From an uncultured Ruminococcus sp. (GTDB taxonomy: Bacteria; Bacillota; Clostridia; Monoglobales; Monoglobaceae), in the NCBI GenBank assembly GCA_902797885.1, contig CADBUP010000081.1, positions 1-35,014 on the forward strand: 35,014 nucleotides of DNA, in the 5' to 3' direction. Made by a program: the position numbers and the translations under genes. Of this stretch, positions 9,160-32,482 are shown in pieces. Positions within the stretch are counted from its first letter, which is position 1. The number at the start of each line of letters is the position of its first letter. Below the pieces are notes generated by a model. That model saw only the letters and a list, made by a program, of their open reading frames with translations, was not told the DNA's origin and did no database searches.

Positions 9160-10983
9160 TTGATTAGCGAAATATTCAAAGCCCTTTTAATCACATCTCT
9201 TGCCGGCTCTGCCCTTGCGGTTGTTATCAGCCTGTTCCGCCCGATAACAAAAAAGATTTTTGGGTATTCGTGGCATTATTACATATGGCTGTGCGTGCTT
9301 TTTGTAATGCTTATGCCGGTGCGGTTTAATGTAAACCCGACACCCACGCCAAGCATTACAACGCAAACGACACAGACGGAACAAACAACTGTCAGCGAAC
9401 AACCCGACGCAATCGAAAATATTGTGCAGGCGGATACGGCTCAAAATCCACAGCTTTTACGGAAAACATCTGTTATATGGGATAGAATAATTTATAACCG
9501 AATGAATATTTTAGCGTATTTATGGCTTATCGGCGCAATAGCTTTAATGCTCTTAAATGTTGTACGATATGTAAGGTTGGATATTAAAATACGCAAAACC
9601 GGTGAGGTTATATCCTGCCCCGAAATCAGCGAGTACACCGACAGGAAAATCAATGTTCGGATATGGAAAAATGTTGCATCACCATTTATGACAGGCGTAT
9701 TCAGACCAACGCTGATTTTGCCGAAAACAGAGCTTTCGGAAGAACAATTACATAACATACTCCGCCACGAAATGACGCATTTTAAACGGCACGATATTTT
9801 ATATAAATGGTTTGCCGAATTTGTAAAATGCGTGTACTGGTTTAACCCAATGGTGTGGTATGTTTCAAAACAAATCGCGGCAGAGTGTGAAATATCCTGC
9901 GATATGTCGGTTACAAAAAATATGACGGACAGCGAGGAAATGAGCTATATCAACACAATTCTCTCCCTGCTTCCGACAGGTAAATCCAAACAGCTTCCGC
10001 TTACCACACAAATGGCAAGCAGTAAAAAAATTTTGAAAAGGAGATTTATTATGATTAAAAATAAGAAAACAACAAGCAGATTTATGTCGGTATTATCCGC
10101 CGTTATTGCCGCCATTATGCTTTCAACAACGGTTTTTGCGAGTGGCGTATTATCAGATTTGACAACTGATGATTACACTATTGAAATACTGAATAACGGC
10201 GAAAAAATTGAACTCACGAATAAGCCTTTTATAGAAAACGGCGAGGTATATGTTCCGCTTAGGGAACTGTTTGAAAAAATGGGTATTATGAGTAATCCTG
10301 AAAATTATATTAATTGGGATAATGGGAAAATAACCGTTTCAATCAACGAGCCGTCAAGAAGCGTAAACGGATATTCGGAATATACTTATCAAATTGAAAT
10401 CGGTCAGGAAATACGAAAAATATTATCAAATCCGGAACCCATAAATTTTGATGTGCTAATTGTTCCGCCTGTTTTGAAGGACAGCATCACATATGTTCAA
10501 TTAGGTTCTGTATCGGGTGTTTTAAATGAAATTTACGGAACGCACTTATACAAATTAGAATATAACATTTTTGATAAAAACAGAAACGATATAACCTTTT
10601 CCGTAACTGATGCATTGGAAACAGAGAAAGATCTGAGAGAAATGTCGGATCCGATAAGAACAGTGGAGTTATTTTTTAAGGCCTTTTATAATCAGGATTT
10701 TGAGAAAATGAAAAGATACTGCACTCAAAGCTGTGTAGACAATTTCTTTGGTGATAATTATGTTTTCGGCATGAAAAAAGCAACGCCTTTAAGCATAGCC
10801 ACAGTTGATAATTTAGCAGAAAAAGGCTATACCAACGGTGAATGGATTGCACAGCCGGAGGTAAAAATGATACCTGCCGAAAATTCTGTCTTTGATCCAA
10901 ACCAAACGAAAACATCGTTTTATATGATATTAAAACAGCAGAACGGCATATATTTAATTGATGAGTTTGCGACAGGACTTTGA
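9160..10983 (+). CDS. BlaR1-type M56 membrane metallopeptidase with stalk and NTF2-like sensor end
   Basis: A 607-residue membrane protein. Hydrophobic segments lie near residues 5-25, 38-55, 115-137 and 307-325. The zinc-protease motif is HEMTH (203-207), followed by ECEISCD near 242-248, as in M56 peptidases that inactivate BlaI. The outer part does not look like the penicillin-binding domain of BlaR1: residues about 335-400 resemble a copper-amine-oxidase-N/stalk domain (NGEVYVPLRELFEKMGI), and the last 110 residues look like an NTF2-like fold (VELFFKAFYNQDFEKMKRYC). The start is TTG with AAGGAGGG before it. A second start at Met298 (10051) has AAAAGGAGA upstream and is followed by a signal-peptide-like segment, so the sensor part may also be made alone. 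There is no beta-lactamase gene nearby; the ligand is unknown. Confidence 0.85.
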   Translation: MISEIFKALLITSLAGSALAVVISLFRPITKKIFGYSWHYYIWLCVLFVMLMPVRFNVNPTPTPSITTQTTQTEQTTVSEQPDAIENIVQADTAQNPQLLRKTSVIWDRIIYNRMNILAYLWLIGAIALMLLNVVRYVRLDIKIRKTGEVISCPEISEYTDRKINVRIWKNVASPFMTGVFRPTLILPKTELSEEQLHNILRHEMTHFKRHDILYKWFAEFVKCVYWFNPMVWYVSKQIAAECEISCDMSVTKNMTDSEEMSYINTILSLLPTGKSKQLPLTTQMASSKKILKRRFIMIKNKKTTSRFMSVLSAVIAAIMLSTTVFASGVLSDLTTDDYTIEILNNGEKIELTNKPFIENGEVYVPLRELFEKMGIMSNPENYINWDNGKITVSINEPSRSVNGYSEYTYQIEIGQEIRKILSNPEPINFDVLIVPPVLKDSITYVQLGSVSGVLNEIYGTHLYKLEYNIFDKNRNDITFSVTDALETEKDLREMSDPIRTVELFFKAFYNQDFEKMKRYCTQSCVDNFFGDNYVFGMKKATPLSIATVDNLAEKGYTNGEWIAQPEVKMIPAENSVFDPNQTKTSFYMILKQQNGIYLIDEFATGL

Positions 10984-21985: not shown

Positions 21986-24900
21986 TCACTTTTTTTCGGT
22001 TTTTAAAAATCTTCCGAGAATTGCAGCCGCCTCAGCTCTTGTTGCACTATCCTTTGGATTTAACGTACTTTCCGTTCTTCCTTTTATTATGCCGCTTCCA
22101 ACCGCGTACTGCAGAGATTCTATTGCATACTCCGAAACATCGCCAAAATCATCGTATGAAAGAATGTTTGTATTTTCTCCCGCCGAAATGTCATATCCTT
22201 TATATTTTGCATATCTGAACATAATAGCCGCTATCTGCTCTCTTGTGATGTTCGCTTCCGGCGCAAACTCAGTTTCGGTTACGCCAAACACGATTCCGTT
22301 CTGCTGTGCCCAGACAACCGCATCGGCGTAATATGCACTCGGGTCAACGTCACTAAATCTGACGTTTTTACCCACATTCGGTTCGCCGTCTGCGCGATAA
22401 AGAATCGTAACAAGCATCGCACGCGTTAAGACTCCGTTCGGTTCAAACATCGTTTCGCTTGTACCTTTCATCAAGCCGTTCTCAGCCGCATATTTTACGT
22501 CTTCAAAGAACCAGTCGCCGCTTTTAACATCGTCAAAGGGATTTTTCCACTCTCCTGAAGTTTCAGTCTGCTTCTCCGTCCACGCCGCATAAAGAGTAAT
22601 ATCTTTCGTCACCCTCTCCGAAAAATCGTATTTTTCGGTCAAATCCTTATCTAAATACCAGCCGTTAAATTTAAATCCTTCCTTTGTCGGCTCTGCCGGC
22701 TCGGTTACCGAATTGTTTCTGACAACCGTCTGACTTGAAACATTGCTTCCGCCGTTGGAATCAAATTTAACCGTAAAGCGCGTCGTTCTGCCTCCGCCGC
22801 CTCCGCCTGTATGCCTTCCGCCGCCGTTACCATCATCGTTTTTATCGGGGTCGGAGCCAAATGTGATTACCGTCTGTGCCGCCGCGGATTCGTTTCCGTT
22901 TACATCTGTCGCGTATAGCCTTACAAGTCCTGTGTCAAGCTCGGGATTGGGAATCGTTTCCGTCATGTGGTTACCGTCCTTGTCAAGAACAGGATTACCT
23001 TCTTCGTCCCATATACCCTGCTCTATTGTGAGCTCAAGCTGACCTTCATATGTGAATCTGCCGTTAGCGTCCGCGGTAGCTGTGCCTTCCTTTCCTTCAA
23101 TGCAAACCGCTGCATTCGGCTCGGTGATTCCGCCTATCTGATACTTGCCCGTTTTCTCATCTGCATATACAACATTCTTATCGAGGCTCAGCATCGGCGC
23201 GGTGTTGTCTAACTCAACCATCAGATACTTGGTTGTTGTATCGGTATATATGCCCTTGTTCACTTTTGCATCGATTCTGAACATTACGGAACCATCAATA
23301 TAACTGTTGATATAGCCCCACTCGGCACCTATATATTTATCATTATTATCAACCCTTGTTATTGTATAATCAGCATTTACATTATTTTTATTCGATACAC
23401 CTATATACCAAGTATTATCATCTCCGTTGCCCGCAGAGGTTGTATACACACCGCTGCCGTCTTCTCCGTCATTTTTCTCAACCGCGTGCTCAACATACTC
23501 TGAACCTCTCAGGGTTTTTAAGGTTACGTCAATATCAATAGGTGTATACTCGGGCAGAAGAGTTTCATTCGATTTTTTCTCTTCGCTGTTGACTTTTGAA
23601 TTGGCTTTGTTTATATTGTTATTTTCTTCATCTTTAACACAATTGTACGCCGAAACGCCAACCACGTATGTCTTGTTCGCTTCAAGAACAGCGTTTTGAT
23701 TTGCCTTCTCCGTTGTTGTTTTGTTCTCGTTGCCGTCATACTCTATATCCGTTCCGCCAACGGTCATAGCCATATCAAGCCTAAATGTCTTGCTTGTGCT
23801 GTCATATGTTACGCCCGGATACTTATTGTCTTTTATTTTCTTGATATCATCCGCGCTGAAATCATATCCCTTACTTGTATCCGTAAGCTCGCCGTTATCA
23901 TCCTTTTGATATATCTTTATCTGATATCCCTCTGCATTTTCTACCTCGTCCCACTCTGCCTGCATAATCTCATTTCCGACAGCCGTAAGGCTTACCCTTT
24001 CCGGAGCGTTCGGCTGAAGAGTGTTTTTATATGAAACTTTATTATCAAACTCAGCTCTGTCAACAGGAAGAAGAACCGTTTGTGTTTCAGTCTCTCCTGT
24101 CTCGTCATTTGTTACCGTAATCGTTTCCTTTTTCAAAAGGCTTGCCGTTACATTATATTTGCCCGTGGGAAGCATTGTTCCCTCTTTAGGAATCTCTAAA
24201 CTTATATTTGAGACATCATTTACATCACTTTGTTCAATCAGATACTCGCTTTTACCCTTCTCGCTTCCGAAGTATGTCGCAAGAACGTATTCTGCACCAT
24301 CTTCCGCGTTTTTAACGCTTCCGCTAATGTTATATCCGCTAAGTGACACATCAAGGCTGTCAAACGGAGCCGAAGCGTTGAGGCTTGCACTAAAGTCTGA
24401 AAGGGTTGATGTAACGTTCCACTTATCGCCGATATTTGAGTTCTCACCCAAACCGATTAATACACAATTCTTACCATCGGCATTTGTAGAAGTATACATA
24501 TTTATGTCTTTCTCGTTTGTTATCTCTTCGTTTTCGTTATATATCGGCTTTGTTAAAGTAACCGCGCTGCCGCCCTTTGAAACAGTAATGCTGTCTGCAA
24601 ATGCGTTTATATCAGTATTTGCATCATTGGGCGTAAGCATCATAAGCACAGTCGCATCGCTTGAAAGCGTCTGACCTGCGTTTGCCTTAAGCTCAACATC
24701 CTTGCTGAAGACGCCGCTGTAAGCCGCTATGCCGGATTCATCGGCGTTATTTACAACCGCAGTATTTAACTCATCCATATTAAGGCTCATTACCGCGAGG
24801 GTTCCGTCTTCTTCGTTCATAACCGCGCTGTAACCGATGGGTTTATGATCCGCCCAATCCCATTCGGGCAGCTTCGACCAAAAAGGTTTTATTGTAAATC

Positions 24901-27547
24901 CTGCATTGTTCTCGGGGAAGATGTAGTAAACGCGGTATTTAACCACCTTCCAGTCAGCCTCCTTCTTTAAACCGCCATAAACCTTAAAGTTTTTAAACGC
25001 CTTATTTACCGCGCCGCCAAAGTCTACTCCTCTGACGGGAACCATAGTGTTTGCGCCGAGGTAGAAGTCAAAGCCTGTAGAACCAAGCTTCAATCCGCCT
25101 ATTGCACCCCAATCTTTCGGCAGATGCAGGCTTCCTCTTACTCCGCCGCTTAAATCGGCTGCGATATACACCCCTGTCGGAGCTTTGTAGCTGTCAAGCC
25201 CCGCAAATACACTTGCATTAATGTCTCCCTGAGCCTGAATAACCTCCCAGCCCTCGGGAACGCTTACGTGTACGCTTGCGCCGCCCATCGCCTTAATACC
25301 TGTATAATTCTTGCCGCTATAATTTCTTGTCTCGCCCTGAAGCCCCTCATACATCGAAAATTTATCGATAAGATTAAGCTTCTTCATAAACGAAATACCG
25401 ACATCCTCTGCCTCAATCTTATAGTACGCGGGGCCGAAGGTATAAGAAGCCTTTGCCTCCATAACATTAAGTATCTCGCCCTTACCCGTGATGGTAAGCT
25501 GTATCGGCGGAATCGCAAAAAAGTCGCCGTTAAACGTATCCGCAAGTCGGTCAAAGCCACCGCCCGCACCTTTTATATAAGCCACAATAACGGGAGGCGT
25601 AAGCGGAATCTTTGCAAGGTTCGACCCTGCGTAAAAGTACAGCTTATTCGGCATAAGCGACCCCGTCAGCTTAGAGCGCTTAAGCTCAAGCTCTGCATTG
25701 CTTTCAAACAGGTCAAAGACGTTCAGCTCCATCGTGAAGTGGTAGTACGACTTAAATGTATCGATTTCACCTTCTACCTTCGCCATATCAAGGCCTATCA
25801 TATCCGCCGTGTCGATTTTGCCCGTAGCCTTGATACCGTTCATCTTAAATTTTCCGTTCTTTAAACCATATCCAAGCTCTTCTATATTAAAGTCCGCACC
25901 GGGGAAGAGCTGAAACTCAACCTCACCGGTAAACTTAATATTTCCGTCGGGTTTTATCACCGCACCGTCCGGCTTAACCGTGGTATTTGGTATATCTATC
26001 GCCATCAGCGCCGCGTTATTAGACGCATCTATTGTTACGTTTATACCCTCTGCTCTCGGCTCCATTGTAATGTCATTGCCGCTTTGGTTTTTCTCCTGAT
26101 AGAACTTAAACGTCGTCGTGTTAAGACTTACGTGGTTTGCTTCTATGCTTCCGTCCTTGCCGACTGAAAGACCGCCGTCTGCCAAATTCCATACCGCTGT
26201 AACAGTTGACGACAACGCCGCCACACCCGTGGTAAACTTGTATCTGTCGCCTTCTTCTTTATAATCGCCGCGCAGAACCGCTATCGGCTCTCCGTAGCTT
26301 TTCTTATTTGTCTTAAGCTCGTTCTCACTCTTTGCGGGAACAGCCTTGTATCCGTCACCGTCTTTGTATATTCCGAGATGCCTCGCAGACGTCTTAATCG
26401 TTACGTTATCGTTGGGCGTAAAGTCCTTTTCGTTTGTTGCATACAAACCGCGAAAGCCCCAAAGTGTTGAACTTCCGTAGCCGGGAACTTCCAGCCCCAT
26501 AAGCGTGCGGCTTGCGTTTTCCAATATAACGTCGCCGTTTGACGTGGTCGAGAAGTATTCGGGCATATTGCCTGCATCATAATCCATATAGCCGTACTCA
26601 TGTCCACGGTTGATCTGCACATTCTGTGAATAACCGTCTACATATTCGCAATACAACCCCGATGTCGCGGTAAAAGGATTCGCCCATGTATAACCCCTTG
26701 TCATTATCTCAGTTATCGCCTCGTTTTGATTACCTCCGGTAACCTTGTTGGCGTGTGTGCGCGACATCGCGCCCGGGATAGCCGTCGGCGTATTGGTAAA
26801 ACCGTGATTCGTGGTACCTACCGCGGTATTCATATAAAGGCTTGCCGCGGTGGGGGCATTCTCATGACCCATCCTGTTAAAACCTTTCATTTCGGTTAAA
26901 ACCTTTATGTCCTTACGGGCATACATTGGGGGATCATTAACATATCCGACCGAAGTAACCGAGCGTATACCCCATGTTCTTCCTTTGTCATTCTCATCAT
27001 GCCCAATCATTCCGCCTGCGCTGAAACCGATTTCCGTTCCCGCGTCAAGCTTTGTTATATAATAATTGGTACAGATTTTATATTTGCCTCCGCCGATAGT
27101 ATACTCGGTCTTGATTCCCGCGGCCTTAACAGGCATTCCTGTCGCCTCGTCGATACTGCTCGTATCAACCGATGCCGTTTCGACCGAGCGTGTGTCAAAT
27201 GACACTTCTTTTGAATCAATGGTAAAATACACGCGCTGGTATATTCCTTTGTTGAATACCATATCATATGCCTCCGCGCCCGATGCCTCGGTTCTTGCGG
27301 GAAGCGTCACCATATAATTGTTCTTGTTGCTTGAATTCTTGCTTGTCAGAAAATAAAATCTGATATACCTATTGTTTAAGCAATAGATATTATAGCCGTT
27401 GTAATCCTCAAAGATTCTCCAGGCTGCCATATCCTCCCTCGCCGCCGAGGTCTGCGACGCGCCGACCAAAGCATACGCCTCGGGCGGAGCAACACATATC
27501 AGCATACAAAAGAGTAATAAAATACTTAAAAATCTCTTCGCCTTCAT
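21986..27547 (-). CDS. 1853-residue secreted S-layer homology (SLH) surface protein
   Basis: A giant exported protein. Residues 1-27 are a signal peptide (KAKR, then a long hydrophobic core ending near AYA). The next 900 or so residues are beta-rich, have no motif I recognise, and include many aromatic and Gly-rich strands. Near residues 1240-1400 there is a fibronectin-III-like region (QAEWDEVENAEGYQIKIY, TYVVGVSAYN). A Gly-rich linker at about 1575-1589 precedes an InlB/Flg_new-type repeat (1590-1656, ending LYAAW). Three SLH modules fill 1668-1850, each with the usual F-DV start and TR-E/TRA helix; these bind pyruvylated wall polymers. AAGGAG precedes the ATG, 36 bp after the TetR gene with no terminator between, so TetR probably controls it. 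It may be an adhesin or structural wall protein; no enzyme motif was seen. Confidence 0.85.
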   Translation of the reverse strand: MKAKRFLSILLLFCMLICVAPPEAYALVGASQTSAAREDMAAWRIFEDYNGYNIYCLNNRYIRFYFLTSKNSSNKNNYMVTLPARTEASGAEAYDMVFNKGIYQRVYFTIDSKEVSFDTRSVETASVDTSSIDEATGMPVKAAGIKTEYTIGGGKYKICTNYYITKLDAGTEIGFSAGGMIGHDENDKGRTWGIRSVTSVGYVNDPPMYARKDIKVLTEMKGFNRMGHENAPTAASLYMNTAVGTTNHGFTNTPTAIPGAMSRTHANKVTGGNQNEAITEIMTRGYTWANPFTATSGLYCEYVDGYSQNVQINRGHEYGYMDYDAGNMPEYFSTTSNGDVILENASRTLMGLEVPGYGSSTLWGFRGLYATNEKDFTPNDNVTIKTSARHLGIYKDGDGYKAVPAKSENELKTNKKSYGEPIAVLRGDYKEEGDRYKFTTGVAALSSTVTAVWNLADGGLSVGKDGSIEANHVSLNTTTFKFYQEKNQSGNDITMEPRAEGINVTIDASNNAALMAIDIPNTTVKPDGAVIKPDGNIKFTGEVEFQLFPGADFNIEELGYGLKNGKFKMNGIKATGKIDTADMIGLDMAKVEGEIDTFKSYYHFTMELNVFDLFESNAELELKRSKLTGSLMPNKLYFYAGSNLAKIPLTPPVIVAYIKGAGGGFDRLADTFNGDFFAIPPIQLTITGKGEILNVMEAKASYTFGPAYYKIEAEDVGISFMKKLNLIDKFSMYEGLQGETRNYSGKNYTGIKAMGGASVHVSVPEGWEVIQAQGDINASVFAGLDSYKAPTGVYIAADLSGGVRGSLHLPKDWGAIGGLKLGSTGFDFYLGANTMVPVRGVDFGGAVNKAFKNFKVYGGLKKEADWKVVKYRVYYIFPENNAGFTIKPFWSKLPEWDWADHKPIGYSAVMNEEDGTLAVMSLNMDELNTAVVNNADESGIAAYSGVFSKDVELKANAGQTLSSDATVLMMLTPNDANTDINAFADSITVSKGGSAVTLTKPIYNENEEITNEKDINMYTSTNADGKNCVLIGLGENSNIGDKWNVTSTLSDFSASLNASAPFDSLDVSLSGYNISGSVKNAEDGAEYVLATYFGSEKGKSEYLIEQSDVNDVSNISLEIPKEGTMLPTGKYNVTASLLKKETITVTNDETGETETQTVLLPVDRAEFDNKVSYKNTLQPNAPERVSLTAVGNEIMQAEWDEVENAEGYQIKIYQKDDNGELTDTSKGYDFSADDIKKIKDNKYPGVTYDSTSKTFRLDMAMTVGGTDIEYDGNENKTTTEKANQNAVLEANKTYVVGVSAYNCVKDEENNNINKANSKVNSEEKKSNETLLPEYTPIDIDVTLKTLRGSEYVEHAVEKNDGEDGSGVYTTSAGNGDDNTWYIGVSNKNNVNADYTITRVDNNDKYIGAEWGYINSYIDGSVMFRIDAKVNKGIYTDTTTKYLMVELDNTAPMLSLDKNVVYADEKTGKYQIGGITEPNAAVCIEGKEGTATADANGRFTYEGQLELTIEQGIWDEEGNPVLDKDGNHMTETIPNPELDTGLVRLYATDVNGNESAAAQTVITFGSDPDKNDDGNGGGRHTGGGGGGRTTRFTVKFDSNGGSNVSSQTVVRNNSVTEPAEPTKEGFKFNGWYLDKDLTEKYDFSERVTKDITLYAAWTEKQTETSGEWKNPFDDVKSGDWFFEDVKYAAENGLMKGTSETMFEPNGVLTRAMLVTILYRADGEPNVGKNVRFSDVDPSAYYADAVVWAQQNGIVFGVTETEFAPEANITREQIAAIMFRYAKYKGYDISAGENTNILSYDDFGDVSEYAIESLQYAVGSGIIKGRTESTLNPKDSATRAEAAAILGRFLKTEKK

Positions 27548-30615: not shown

Positions 30616-30677
30616 GCAAAAACTTTTTTATACTGTTGACAAAACTTGTTCTTGGTTATACAATTTTAAAAAACATT

Positions 30678-30707
30678 CCAACTTTTTCGGCGTTCCTGCG
30701 TGTAATA
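30678..30707 (+). promoter_or_regulatory. ECF-sigma-type promoter before the zinc-ribbon gene
   Basis: CCAACTTTTTC (30678-30688), nine bases, then GCGTGTAATA (30698-30707). The AAC and CGT cores are separated by 16 bp, the usual geometry of ECF sigma promoters. The same two blocks with the same spacing occur at 31561. A TTGACA at 30636 with a poor -10 may be a second, weaker start. Confidence 0.7.
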
Positions 30708-30736
30708 TAATGAATTAACTATGGAGATGCGTAAAA

Positions 30737-31552
30737 ATGCCCGAATCAAACAAATTCCCCGCCCGCGGGTCGTTTACTTCATCCGCGCGTGAAGCACTTG
30801 AAAAGCAGGGCTCATCCGACACCGAATCATTGCTGAGCGGAATTGCCGATGCTTCCGCCGATGTAATCGACGCGATAACCCTCGACGAGCAAAATACTGT
30901 TACCTATTCGGCATCAAACAGCGCGATTGTCGGCCGAAGGTTCAGTCTGAAAAAAGATGAAAACGGGCTTTTAACAACGGATATATACGGTGGTGCCGCC
31001 CTTCGGTTTTTGTCGAATGACGAGTTTATGCTATCGGCCGTTTTTTCGGATGTGCTTTCAAAGTTCAGTGACAAAACCGAAAAATATGAAGAGGAGGAAT
31101 ACTTTTATCTCAGCGGCGGCAAAAACGCATACTTAATCAGCCGAATTTCGGCAGATAAAAAAAGCGGAGTAAGAACGTATGTAATCATAAACCCAACCTC
31201 CGTTAAATACGGAACATCGGCGCTTAAAGCCGCCGCAGGAATATTTATGCTTTTATTTATGATATATTGGGTTATTATTGCTCTTTGGGTATACCAAAAC
31301 ACCGAAAAGTCGCATCTTTCCGCACCGATATGGGGAATCATCACTCTATGTACCAACCTCGCCGGAGTTTTGGTATACACAGTATACAAACATTCAAACG
31401 CCGTTTGCCCCTGCTGCGGTGCGGTTCAGCCGAGGTCAAACACCTTTTGTATATCCTGCGGCGCCAAAATAGGTCTTACCTGTCCCGAATGCGGACACGG
31501 AACCGCCTCGGGCGATAACTTCTGTTCGAGCTGCGGCCACAAAATTAAATAA
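30737..31552 (+). CDS. Membrane protein with PLDc_N-like helical hairpin and C-terminal zinc ribbons
   Basis: A 271-residue protein of unknown function. Residues 1-160 are soluble and have no motif I know. Two hydrophobic segments (about 163-186 and 196-217) surround LWVYQNTEKSHLSAPIWGI; this resembles the PLDc_N domain pattern (WVY.(D/N)...R....lW), a small membrane module also seen in YxlE, a regulator of B. subtilis SigY. The C-terminus holds zinc-ribbon cysteine pairs: 224/227, 238/241, 249/252 and 263/266, so two ribbons. The ATG at 30737 follows GGAG at moderate distance. An ECF-type promoter lies about 30 bp upstream, suggesting envelope-stress control. The PLDc_N likeness is a reading by eye. 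Confidence 0.7.
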   Translation: MPESNKFPARGSFTSSAREALEKQGSSDTESLLSGIADASADVIDAITLDEQNTVTYSASNSAIVGRRFSLKKDENGLLTTDIYGGAALRFLSNDEFMLSAVFSDVLSKFSDKTEKYEEEEYFYLSGGKNAYLISRISADKKSGVRTYVIINPTSVKYGTSALKAAAGIFMLLFMIYWVIIALWVYQNTEKSHLSAPIWGIITLCTNLAGVLVYTVYKHSNAVCPCCGAVQPRSNTFCISCGAKIGLTCPECGHGTASGDNFCSSCGHKIK

Positions 31553-31560
31553 AATTTTCC

Positions 31561-31590
31561 CCAACTTTTTCTGTCATAGCGCGTGTAATA
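31561..31590 (+). promoter_or_regulatory. Second ECF-sigma-type promoter, before the P-type ATPase remnant
   Basis: CCAACTTTTTC (31561-31571), nine bases, then GCGTGTAATA (31581-31590): identical blocks and spacing to the copy at 30678, while the nine bases between and the flanks differ. It starts eight bases after the zinc-ribbon stop codon and would begin transcription about 23 bp before the next ATG. Confidence 0.7.
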
Positions 31591-31619: not shown

Positions 31620-32210
31620 ATGAACAACATATCCAAAACCATACCACGGATTTTAAAGGAAAACATCTGTACCGTATTTAATCTCTTGAATATCTTGATT
31701 GCTCTGCTCCTCGCGCTCGCAGGTGCATGGAAGAACATTTTGTTTATCGCGGTCATTTTAATAAATACAATAATCGGGATTATTCAAGAGATAAAGGCCA
31801 AACGTCAGATAGAGAGGCTTACTCTCTTATCTCTGCCGAGTGTCAACATAATCAGAGACGGAGTTTCGATGAGCATAACGCCGTCAGAGGTTAAAAAATG
31901 CGACATATTTCTGTTTGAAAGCGGTTCTGTGATATGCTGCGACTGTATTATAAAATCAGGCGAGGCAGAGATTAACGAATCTATTTTAACCGGAGAATCC
32001 GAACCCGCACTAAAACGCACGGGTGATACTCTCCTATCGGGAAGCACAGTAATCTCGGGACGTTGCCGAGCAGAGGCCTGCTGCGGCAGGTTCGTTTATC
32101 GGCTTGTCGACTCTTTTTATAAAAGGCCCTGCCGCCGCGCCGATAAGCAATGCGTTAAACATAGTTCCCTCTCTTACGGCGATAATTCCTCCGAAGAGAA
32201 TCACAGATAA
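31620..32210 (+). pseudogene. 5' remnant of a cation-transporting P-type ATPase
   Basis: From the ATG at 31620 (AGGGTGA just upstream) the frame encodes the start of a P-type ATPase: two membrane helices (about residues 20-34 and 39-56), NTIIGIIQEIKAKRQIERL, then the actuator domain with GDGV-like IIRDGVSM and the phosphatase loop TGES (124-127). Clear family likeness stops at GRCRAEA, near 32078. The remaining residues to 32210 are unlike any ATPase and end at a stop. The phosphorylation motif DKTGT, the nucleotide-binding domain and six or so further helices are all absent, so no transport activity is possible. Promoter and ribosome site look intact, so a truncated two-helix protein could still be made. 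Confidence 0.75.
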
Positions 32211-32249
32211 TTTCGCGGAACACAAGTCACAAACCCAAAAGCTTTCAGA
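32076..32249 (-). pseudogene. Inverted fragment resembling a YczE/YitT-type membrane protein
   Basis: On the minus strand the frame running down from 32249 encodes a hydrophobic stretch with LSVILFGGIIAVREGTMFNALLIG, then FIKRVDKPI. VREGT followed by a helix and LLIG is, from memory, typical of the C-terminal part of YczE/DUF6198-type membrane proteins. Nothing upstream continues the family; a terminator hairpin and another gene lie there. Likeness ends near 32076, where the ATPase likeness from the other strand ends. It is therefore probably a gene remnant joined head-on to the ATPase remnant. The family match is by eye only. Confidence 0.45.
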
Positions 32250-32260
32250 TTTTATATACT

Positions 32261-32305
32261 CAAAAAGGCTCAACTCGCATAAAAACAGCGGATTGAGCCC
32301 TTTTG
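32261..32305. terminator. Hairpin terminator between the remnants and DUF1540
   Basis: CAAAAAGGCTCAA (32261-32273) pairs with TTGAGCCCTTTTG (32293-32305), with one mismatch. AATTATTTTATTTTT follows on the plus strand and TTTTTGA on the minus side. It would end the DUF1540 transcript (minus) and the ATPase remnant transcript (plus). Confidence 0.7.
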
Positions 32306-32323: not shown

Positions 32324-32482
32324 TTAGCGAGCCTTAAAAGTTACACACTCTGTATCACAAGAGCTGCAGCAAGTCTTTGACGAACCTACTTCAATCTTGC
32401 CCGCTGTACACTTTGAGCCGTTTTCGTTGTAGGTGCATTGCTGAACGCTGCAAAAAATTCCGGGATTTGTTGAATTGTCCAT
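32324..32482 (-). CDS. Small cysteine-rich DUF1540 protein
   Basis: A 52-residue protein with nine cysteines. The pattern C..QCTYNENGSKCTAGKIEV, then CCSSCDTECVTF, fits DUF1540, a small probably metal-binding domain found in many Clostridia and Bacilli. GGAGG lies nine bases before the ATG at 32482; a longer open frame to 32548 has no ribosome site. It has its own terminator downstream. Function unknown. Confidence 0.85.
   Translation of the reverse strand: MDNSTNPGIFCSVQQCTYNENGSKCTAGKIEVGSSKTCCSSCDTECVTFKAR

Follow-up and report, generated by a model that had tools for sequence, protein, structure and literature searches.

Two identical ECF-type promoters in an uncultured Ruminococcus genome probably belong to a decaying SigY-like regulon

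The window analysed here is the whole of a 35,014-nucleotide stretch of DNA from an uncultured Ruminococcus sp. (assembly GCA_902797885.1, contig CADBUP010000081.1). The motif CCAACTTTTTC-N9-GCGTGTAATA is found exactly at 30678–30707 and again at 31561–31590, in each case on the + strand and over 30 bases, as a first-pass annotation of this DNA had stated. At the first of these sites, the ECF-type promoter P1, the -35 element AAC lies at 30680–30682 and the -10 element CGTGTAA at 30699–30705, separated by a 16-nt spacer with a T-tract, and a transcript would be expected to start at about 30711–30713. The second, P2, has AAC at 31563–31565 and CGTGTAA at 31582–31588 and precedes a fragment of a P-type ATPase gene. 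The 16-bp distance claimed between AAC and CGT holds at both sites (16 nt in each), as does the claim that their spacers and flanks differ. Autoregulated ECF promoters have AAC at -35 and CGT at -10 (PMC8103513), and both window sites have them too. Just upstream of P1 there is a sigma-A-like TTGACA-N17-TACAAT (30636–30664, + strand), identified by consensus match only (11/12 bases); no sigma-A-like site was seen before site 2.

No third site with three or fewer mismatches was found in the window, and none appeared across 100 dinucleotide shuffles. The annotation had proposed a scan of the whole genome, a draft in 204 contigs that is 98% complete. In its 2,579,087 bases the core AACTTTTTN10GCGTGTAA occurs exactly twice, with no occurrence in the reversed control, which places the pair far beyond chance. 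The looser motif was of no such use: with three mismatches it gave 45 matches against 51 in the reversed control, from which it is indistinguishable, and it was rejected as background.

P1 is followed by a 29-nt leader with a GGAG (30708–30736, + strand), the presumed junction of a deletion, and then by a gene for a 271-aa membrane protein (30737–31552, + strand) with a sensor-like region, a two-helix PLDc_N-like hairpin and a C-terminal double zinc ribbon. Pfam matches to DZR and Zn_Ribbon_1 uphold the earlier naming of a zinc-ribbon membrane protein as the first target. The PLDc_N-like hairpin claimed for it is supported through homologues, one of which passes the cut-off for PLDc_N (PF13396; G300, E=4.6e-5, 23.7 bits against 23.3) while another is weak (G206), but the window protein itself does not reach that cut-off. 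For the sensor-like region the strand pattern gives only hints of a PAS/Cache-like character, and an AlphaFold model of the protein, built on an alignment of just two sequences, was of poor quality (mean pLDDT 52.7). The ORF is intact and all zinc-ribbon cysteines are present. Missing, with the frame kept, is an N-terminal membrane helix of about 35 residues that is present in all six N-terminally complete homologues.

The gene behind P2 (31620–32210, + strand) encodes a truncated P-type ATPase. Over 151 aa it shares 60% identity with the N-terminal part of an intact 752-aa ATPase of Candidatus Roslinia caecavium (G010), but only about 155 residues precede the cut. The homology runs to 32075 and stops short of the phosphorylation site, leaving only half an E1-E2_ATPase domain and neither the phosphorylation site nor the HAD domain, so the ATPase is indeed broken, as first described. 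Past the break, the sequence at 32076–32285 is unrelated to the ATPase. The junction carries an inverted repeat, gccgagcag/ctgctgcggc, and a minus-strand ORF beyond the break (32034–32273) resembles the end of a membrane protein and has no Pfam match. Other features of the window are a 52-aa cysteine-rich DUF1540 protein encoded between the broken operon and ligA (32324–32482, − strand); a 607-aa protein (9160–10983, + strand) with an N-terminal membrane part, an RHEMTHF motif and an unusually long C-terminal region, which by eye only resembles BlaR1/MecR1-type sensors; and an 1853-aa secreted protein (21986–27547, − strand) whose C-terminal repeats are S-layer-homology-like, again by eye only.

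The zinc-ribbon protein has a full homologue (41–43% identical) in just one of 37 other genomes of the family, that of G010. There the operon runs from an ECF sigma gene through genes for an 86-aa membrane protein and the zinc-ribbon protein to the intact 752-aa P-type ATPase. A profile built from the window and G010 zinc-ribbon proteins yielded seven more homologues in 391 Clostridia genomes. Five of these seven loci (G188, G206, G300, G196 and G133) keep the order ECF, small protein, zinc-ribbon protein; one is cut off by a contig end (G053), and one has a shorter zinc-ribbon protein and no ECF before it (G139). The operon ECFs are 42–55% identical to one another. The small protein of the relatives is about 90 aa long, with two hydrophobic segments and an L..EI..KC motif that is conserved, and a Pfam search with it assigned no family. 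Genes for DedA (VTT domain) and PAP2 proteins recur beside the ECF operon in relatives, and in G196 a DedA gene is the first gene of the operon. DedA proteins include undecaprenyl-phosphate flippases, according to PMC9876793, PMC12893004 and PMC10127716, which together with these neighbours suggests that the operon may be linked to lipid-carrier recycling and respond to stress on the envelope or the lipid carrier. The papers searched on SigY/YxlC, zinc ribbons and PLDc_N gave no description of the intact system, and as far as we searched an intact SigY-like version in Clostridia is undescribed.

The promoter motif recurs with the operon. AAC-N16-CGT(G/A)TAA lies 30–107 bp before the first operon gene in each of the six genomes whose upstream region could be read (G010, G188, G206, G300, G196 and G133), where the chance of such a site in 250 bp is about 1e-4 to 1.3e-3 for each operon. 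Directly before the G010 ECF gene it reads CCAACCTTTTTCAAATACCGCCGTGTAACATAATG, with the same 16 nt from AAC to CGT as in the window motif; the G133 site, whose T-tract is shifted, was recognised by eye only. Both blocks and their spacing are conserved before the cognate ECF gene in 6/6 operons, the pattern of autoregulation. Since a conserved site stands before all six ECF operons, we assign the motif, on its sequence, as the autoregulatory promoter of the operon's ECF group, and the earlier reading of the two window sites as ECF-sigma promoters is borne out.

The window's own exact motif had no match in 59 relatives, since conservation does not extend to the bases on either side of AAC and CGTGTAA; the pattern that succeeded was AACNTTTTN11CGTGTAA. 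Across the 391 Clostridia genomes, CAACNTTTTN11CGTGTAA occurs at 11 sites (reversed control, 5): seven operon or ATPase promoters, three sites within genes and one intergenic site. This last, an exact ECF-type CCAACCTTTTCATTTTTCCAGCGTGTAATG in G312 (L142:1501-1527), lies before a flippase-like Polysacc_synt gene, which is a possible further target of the operon sigma group. Matches with one mismatch inside genes (L045, L105, L111, L114), together with L137, L143 and L144, were taken as chance. In two genomes, AACTTTTTN11CGTCTAA was also seen at the 3' end of another group's ECF genes (L109:1501-1526 and L110:1501-1526), just before the anti-sigma-like gene, and is possibly an internal promoter or chance.

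A second exact copy of the motif in G188, on a different contig from the ECF operon, precedes a homologue of the window ATPase that is 44–46% identical to the G010 ATPase. No exact copy was found before the ATPase in G010. Since the G188 copy stands at a separate locus, P2 is no accident and both window targets have independent support; by its promoter, the ATPase is a predicted target of the operon sigma in a separate lineage too. G010 and G188 both lend support to the small regulon that had been supposed to contain the zinc-ribbon and ATPase genes. The G188 ATPase gene (L112, G188:C14) is itself split over two frames around the fourth membrane segment, a frameshift either of the organism or of the assembly.

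In the relatives, promoter 1 is separated from the zinc-ribbon gene by two genes, one for an ECF sigma factor and one for the small two-helix protein (L083:4020-4890; L096, L097, L099 and L101); both are absent behind P1 in the window. The window genome encodes two ECF genes, here C93 and C125. The first has an RsiW-like neighbouring gene whose product resembles a zinc-binding membrane anti-sigma. The second (G000:C125, L010:1429-2741) represents a second ECF group of the family, and the membrane protein encoded downstream of it has no Pfam family. The operon ECFs are 20–33% identical to these two, and a profile gave the G010 ECF 283 bits and the pair only 101 and 48; identity and scores rule out either one as an orthologue of the operon sigma. 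The sigma factor had been placed elsewhere in the genome, a view that fails since in the relatives its gene directly follows promoter 1, ahead of the zinc-ribbon gene, and the two ECFs present are not orthologous to it. A search of the other contigs found neither the cognate sigma gene nor any fragment of it, and at 98% completeness the genome probably lacks it.

Altogether, the results suggest that the window probably holds a SigY-like regulon in decay, whose promoters have been orphaned by the loss of their sigma factor. P1 and P2 would both be recognised by a single SigY-like ECF sigma factor. In the relatives, the counterpart of P1 would be the autoregulatory operon promoter, the ~90-aa two-helix protein would be an anti-sigma and the zinc-ribbon/PLDc_N membrane protein a co-regulator; under stress, these membrane partners would free the sigma factor, and its own operon and the ATPase would be switched on. 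In the lineage of the window, a deletion would have removed the genes for sigma and its small partner along with the first helix of the zinc-ribbon protein, and the ATPase would have been truncated, leaving the promoters orphaned. The anti-sigma roles, the signal and the placing of the deletion in the organism rather than in the assembly are what we infer from the comparison. The remaining zinc-ribbon ORF would be a relic, or would be read from the upstream sigma-A-like promoter or by a non-cognate ECF; with a near-consensus sigma-A promoter at 30636–30664, the gene may be transcribed without the lost sigma factor. What remains is best read as a sigma-less, partly broken remnant with no working regulon evident. 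Some observations run counter to decay. The conserved blocks of P1 and P2 are perfectly identical, which is unusual without selection unless the loss is recent, so the sites either lost their sigma factor recently or continue to be read. The zinc-ribbon ORF, being intact with all its zinc-ribbon cysteines, may still be used. A draft assembly, moreover, may have failed to include the sigma gene, or may have created the deletion by error.

A wider proposal, which we consider rather unlikely, is that the Clostridia operon is an undescribed SigY-like ECF system in which the zinc-ribbon/sensor protein and the tiny anti-sigma would control a sigma factor governing the ATPase and lipid-carrier recycling genes, and that the window's sensor, with the sigma gene deleted and its first helix gone, has been repurposed under sigma-A or another ECF. 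Lower again we place a working regulon whose sigma factor sits elsewhere, the C125 (or C93) ECF of the same genome having taken over P1 and P2. The genome does retain two ECFs and both promoters are intact. Before C125-type ECFs in relatives the promoter-like sites read TGAAAC and, about 15 nt on, CGTGTATATAA (TGAAACC-N15-(C)GTGTATATAA), and GTGTATATAA is near the window's CGTGTAATA. However, TGAAAC with about 15 nt to CGT differs from CCAAC with 16 nt at P1 and P2, and the window genome's own C125 site reads CGGATATATA. Neither ECF is orthologous to the operon sigma, and of the two targets the broken ATPase, at least, could not function. Cross-talk of a C125-type ECF with P1 and P2 is possible but, judged by these sites, not favoured.

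We find it slightly less credible still that the real genome carries a complete operon which the draft assembly mis-joined or dropped. Both breaks fall inside a contig whose flanking genes here, SIR2 and ligA, are ordinary; the reading frame of the zinc-ribbon ORF is unbroken where the helix is missing, and the ORF is equipped with a start and a GGAG of its own; and the other contigs hold no fragment of a cognate sigma gene. These points weigh against an artefact despite the 204 contigs of the draft and the closeness of the breaks at 30708–30736 and 32075. Finally, the motif could be an operator or RNA element common to both genes, with transcription from the sigma-A-like promoter at 30636–30664, which is near consensus and would put the motif of site 1 in a 5' leader. 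This is very improbable: site 2 is without a sigma-A-like site before it, and AAC and CGTGTAA recur at a fixed 16-nt spacing before ECF genes in six genomes, as for autoregulated ECF promoters (PMC8103513).

On the preferred reading of a decaying regulon, the window seems to catch a regulon after the loss of its sigma factor, with promoters that have outlived it. For an ECF system thinly spread over Clostridia, the comparison supplies the promoter together with its sigma factor, a pair of putative membrane regulators and two targets, and the zinc-ribbon/PLDc_N partner is a testable idea for how SigY-type sigma factors might be held at the membrane.

Among the closest known systems, the operon of G010 (L083/L088) shares with the window the promoter, the zinc-ribbon protein, the ATPase and the order of these two genes; it differs in retaining genes for the sigma factor and the small membrane protein, as well as the first membrane helix of the zinc-ribbon protein, and in having an ATPase that is intact. 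That ATPase is akin to the CtpE-type calcium pumps (family 23) in length (752 aa against 791 aa) and in its LPKGL motif, where CtpE-type ATPases have VPEGL (PMC5615198), a likeness that is a lead only. CtpE takes up calcium for cell-surface integrity (PMC5615198). The window copy, unlike CtpE-type ATPases, is without the catalytic domain. The SigW/RsiW-type pair at C93 of the window genome also sets an ECF sigma gene beside an anti-sigma-like membrane protein gene, but it differs in its 25–33% identity to the operon ECFs and in its sigma-A-like promoter. Against NCBIfam models, the operon ECFs of the relatives match SigY (NF007216) best, at 133–141 bits and below its cut-off of 194. In Bacillus subtilis, sigY-yxlCDEFG likewise encodes small membrane proteins downstream of the sigma factor, one of them with a PLDc_N hairpin, and the SigY regulator YxlE has this hairpin. 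The early hint at SigY was therefore a good one as to best match and hairpin, while the scores stay under the SigY cut-off. Unlike in the B. subtilis system, the hairpin of the Clostridia operon is part of a protein that also carries a sensor-like domain and a double zinc ribbon, ABC transporter genes were not seen at the operon, the promoter has CCAAC with a T-tract at -35, and the window lacks the sigma factor itself. By analogy, the Clostridia operon, which we do not file as SigY, probably operates in the manner of SigY, though with a zinc-ribbon/sensor partner that sets it apart.
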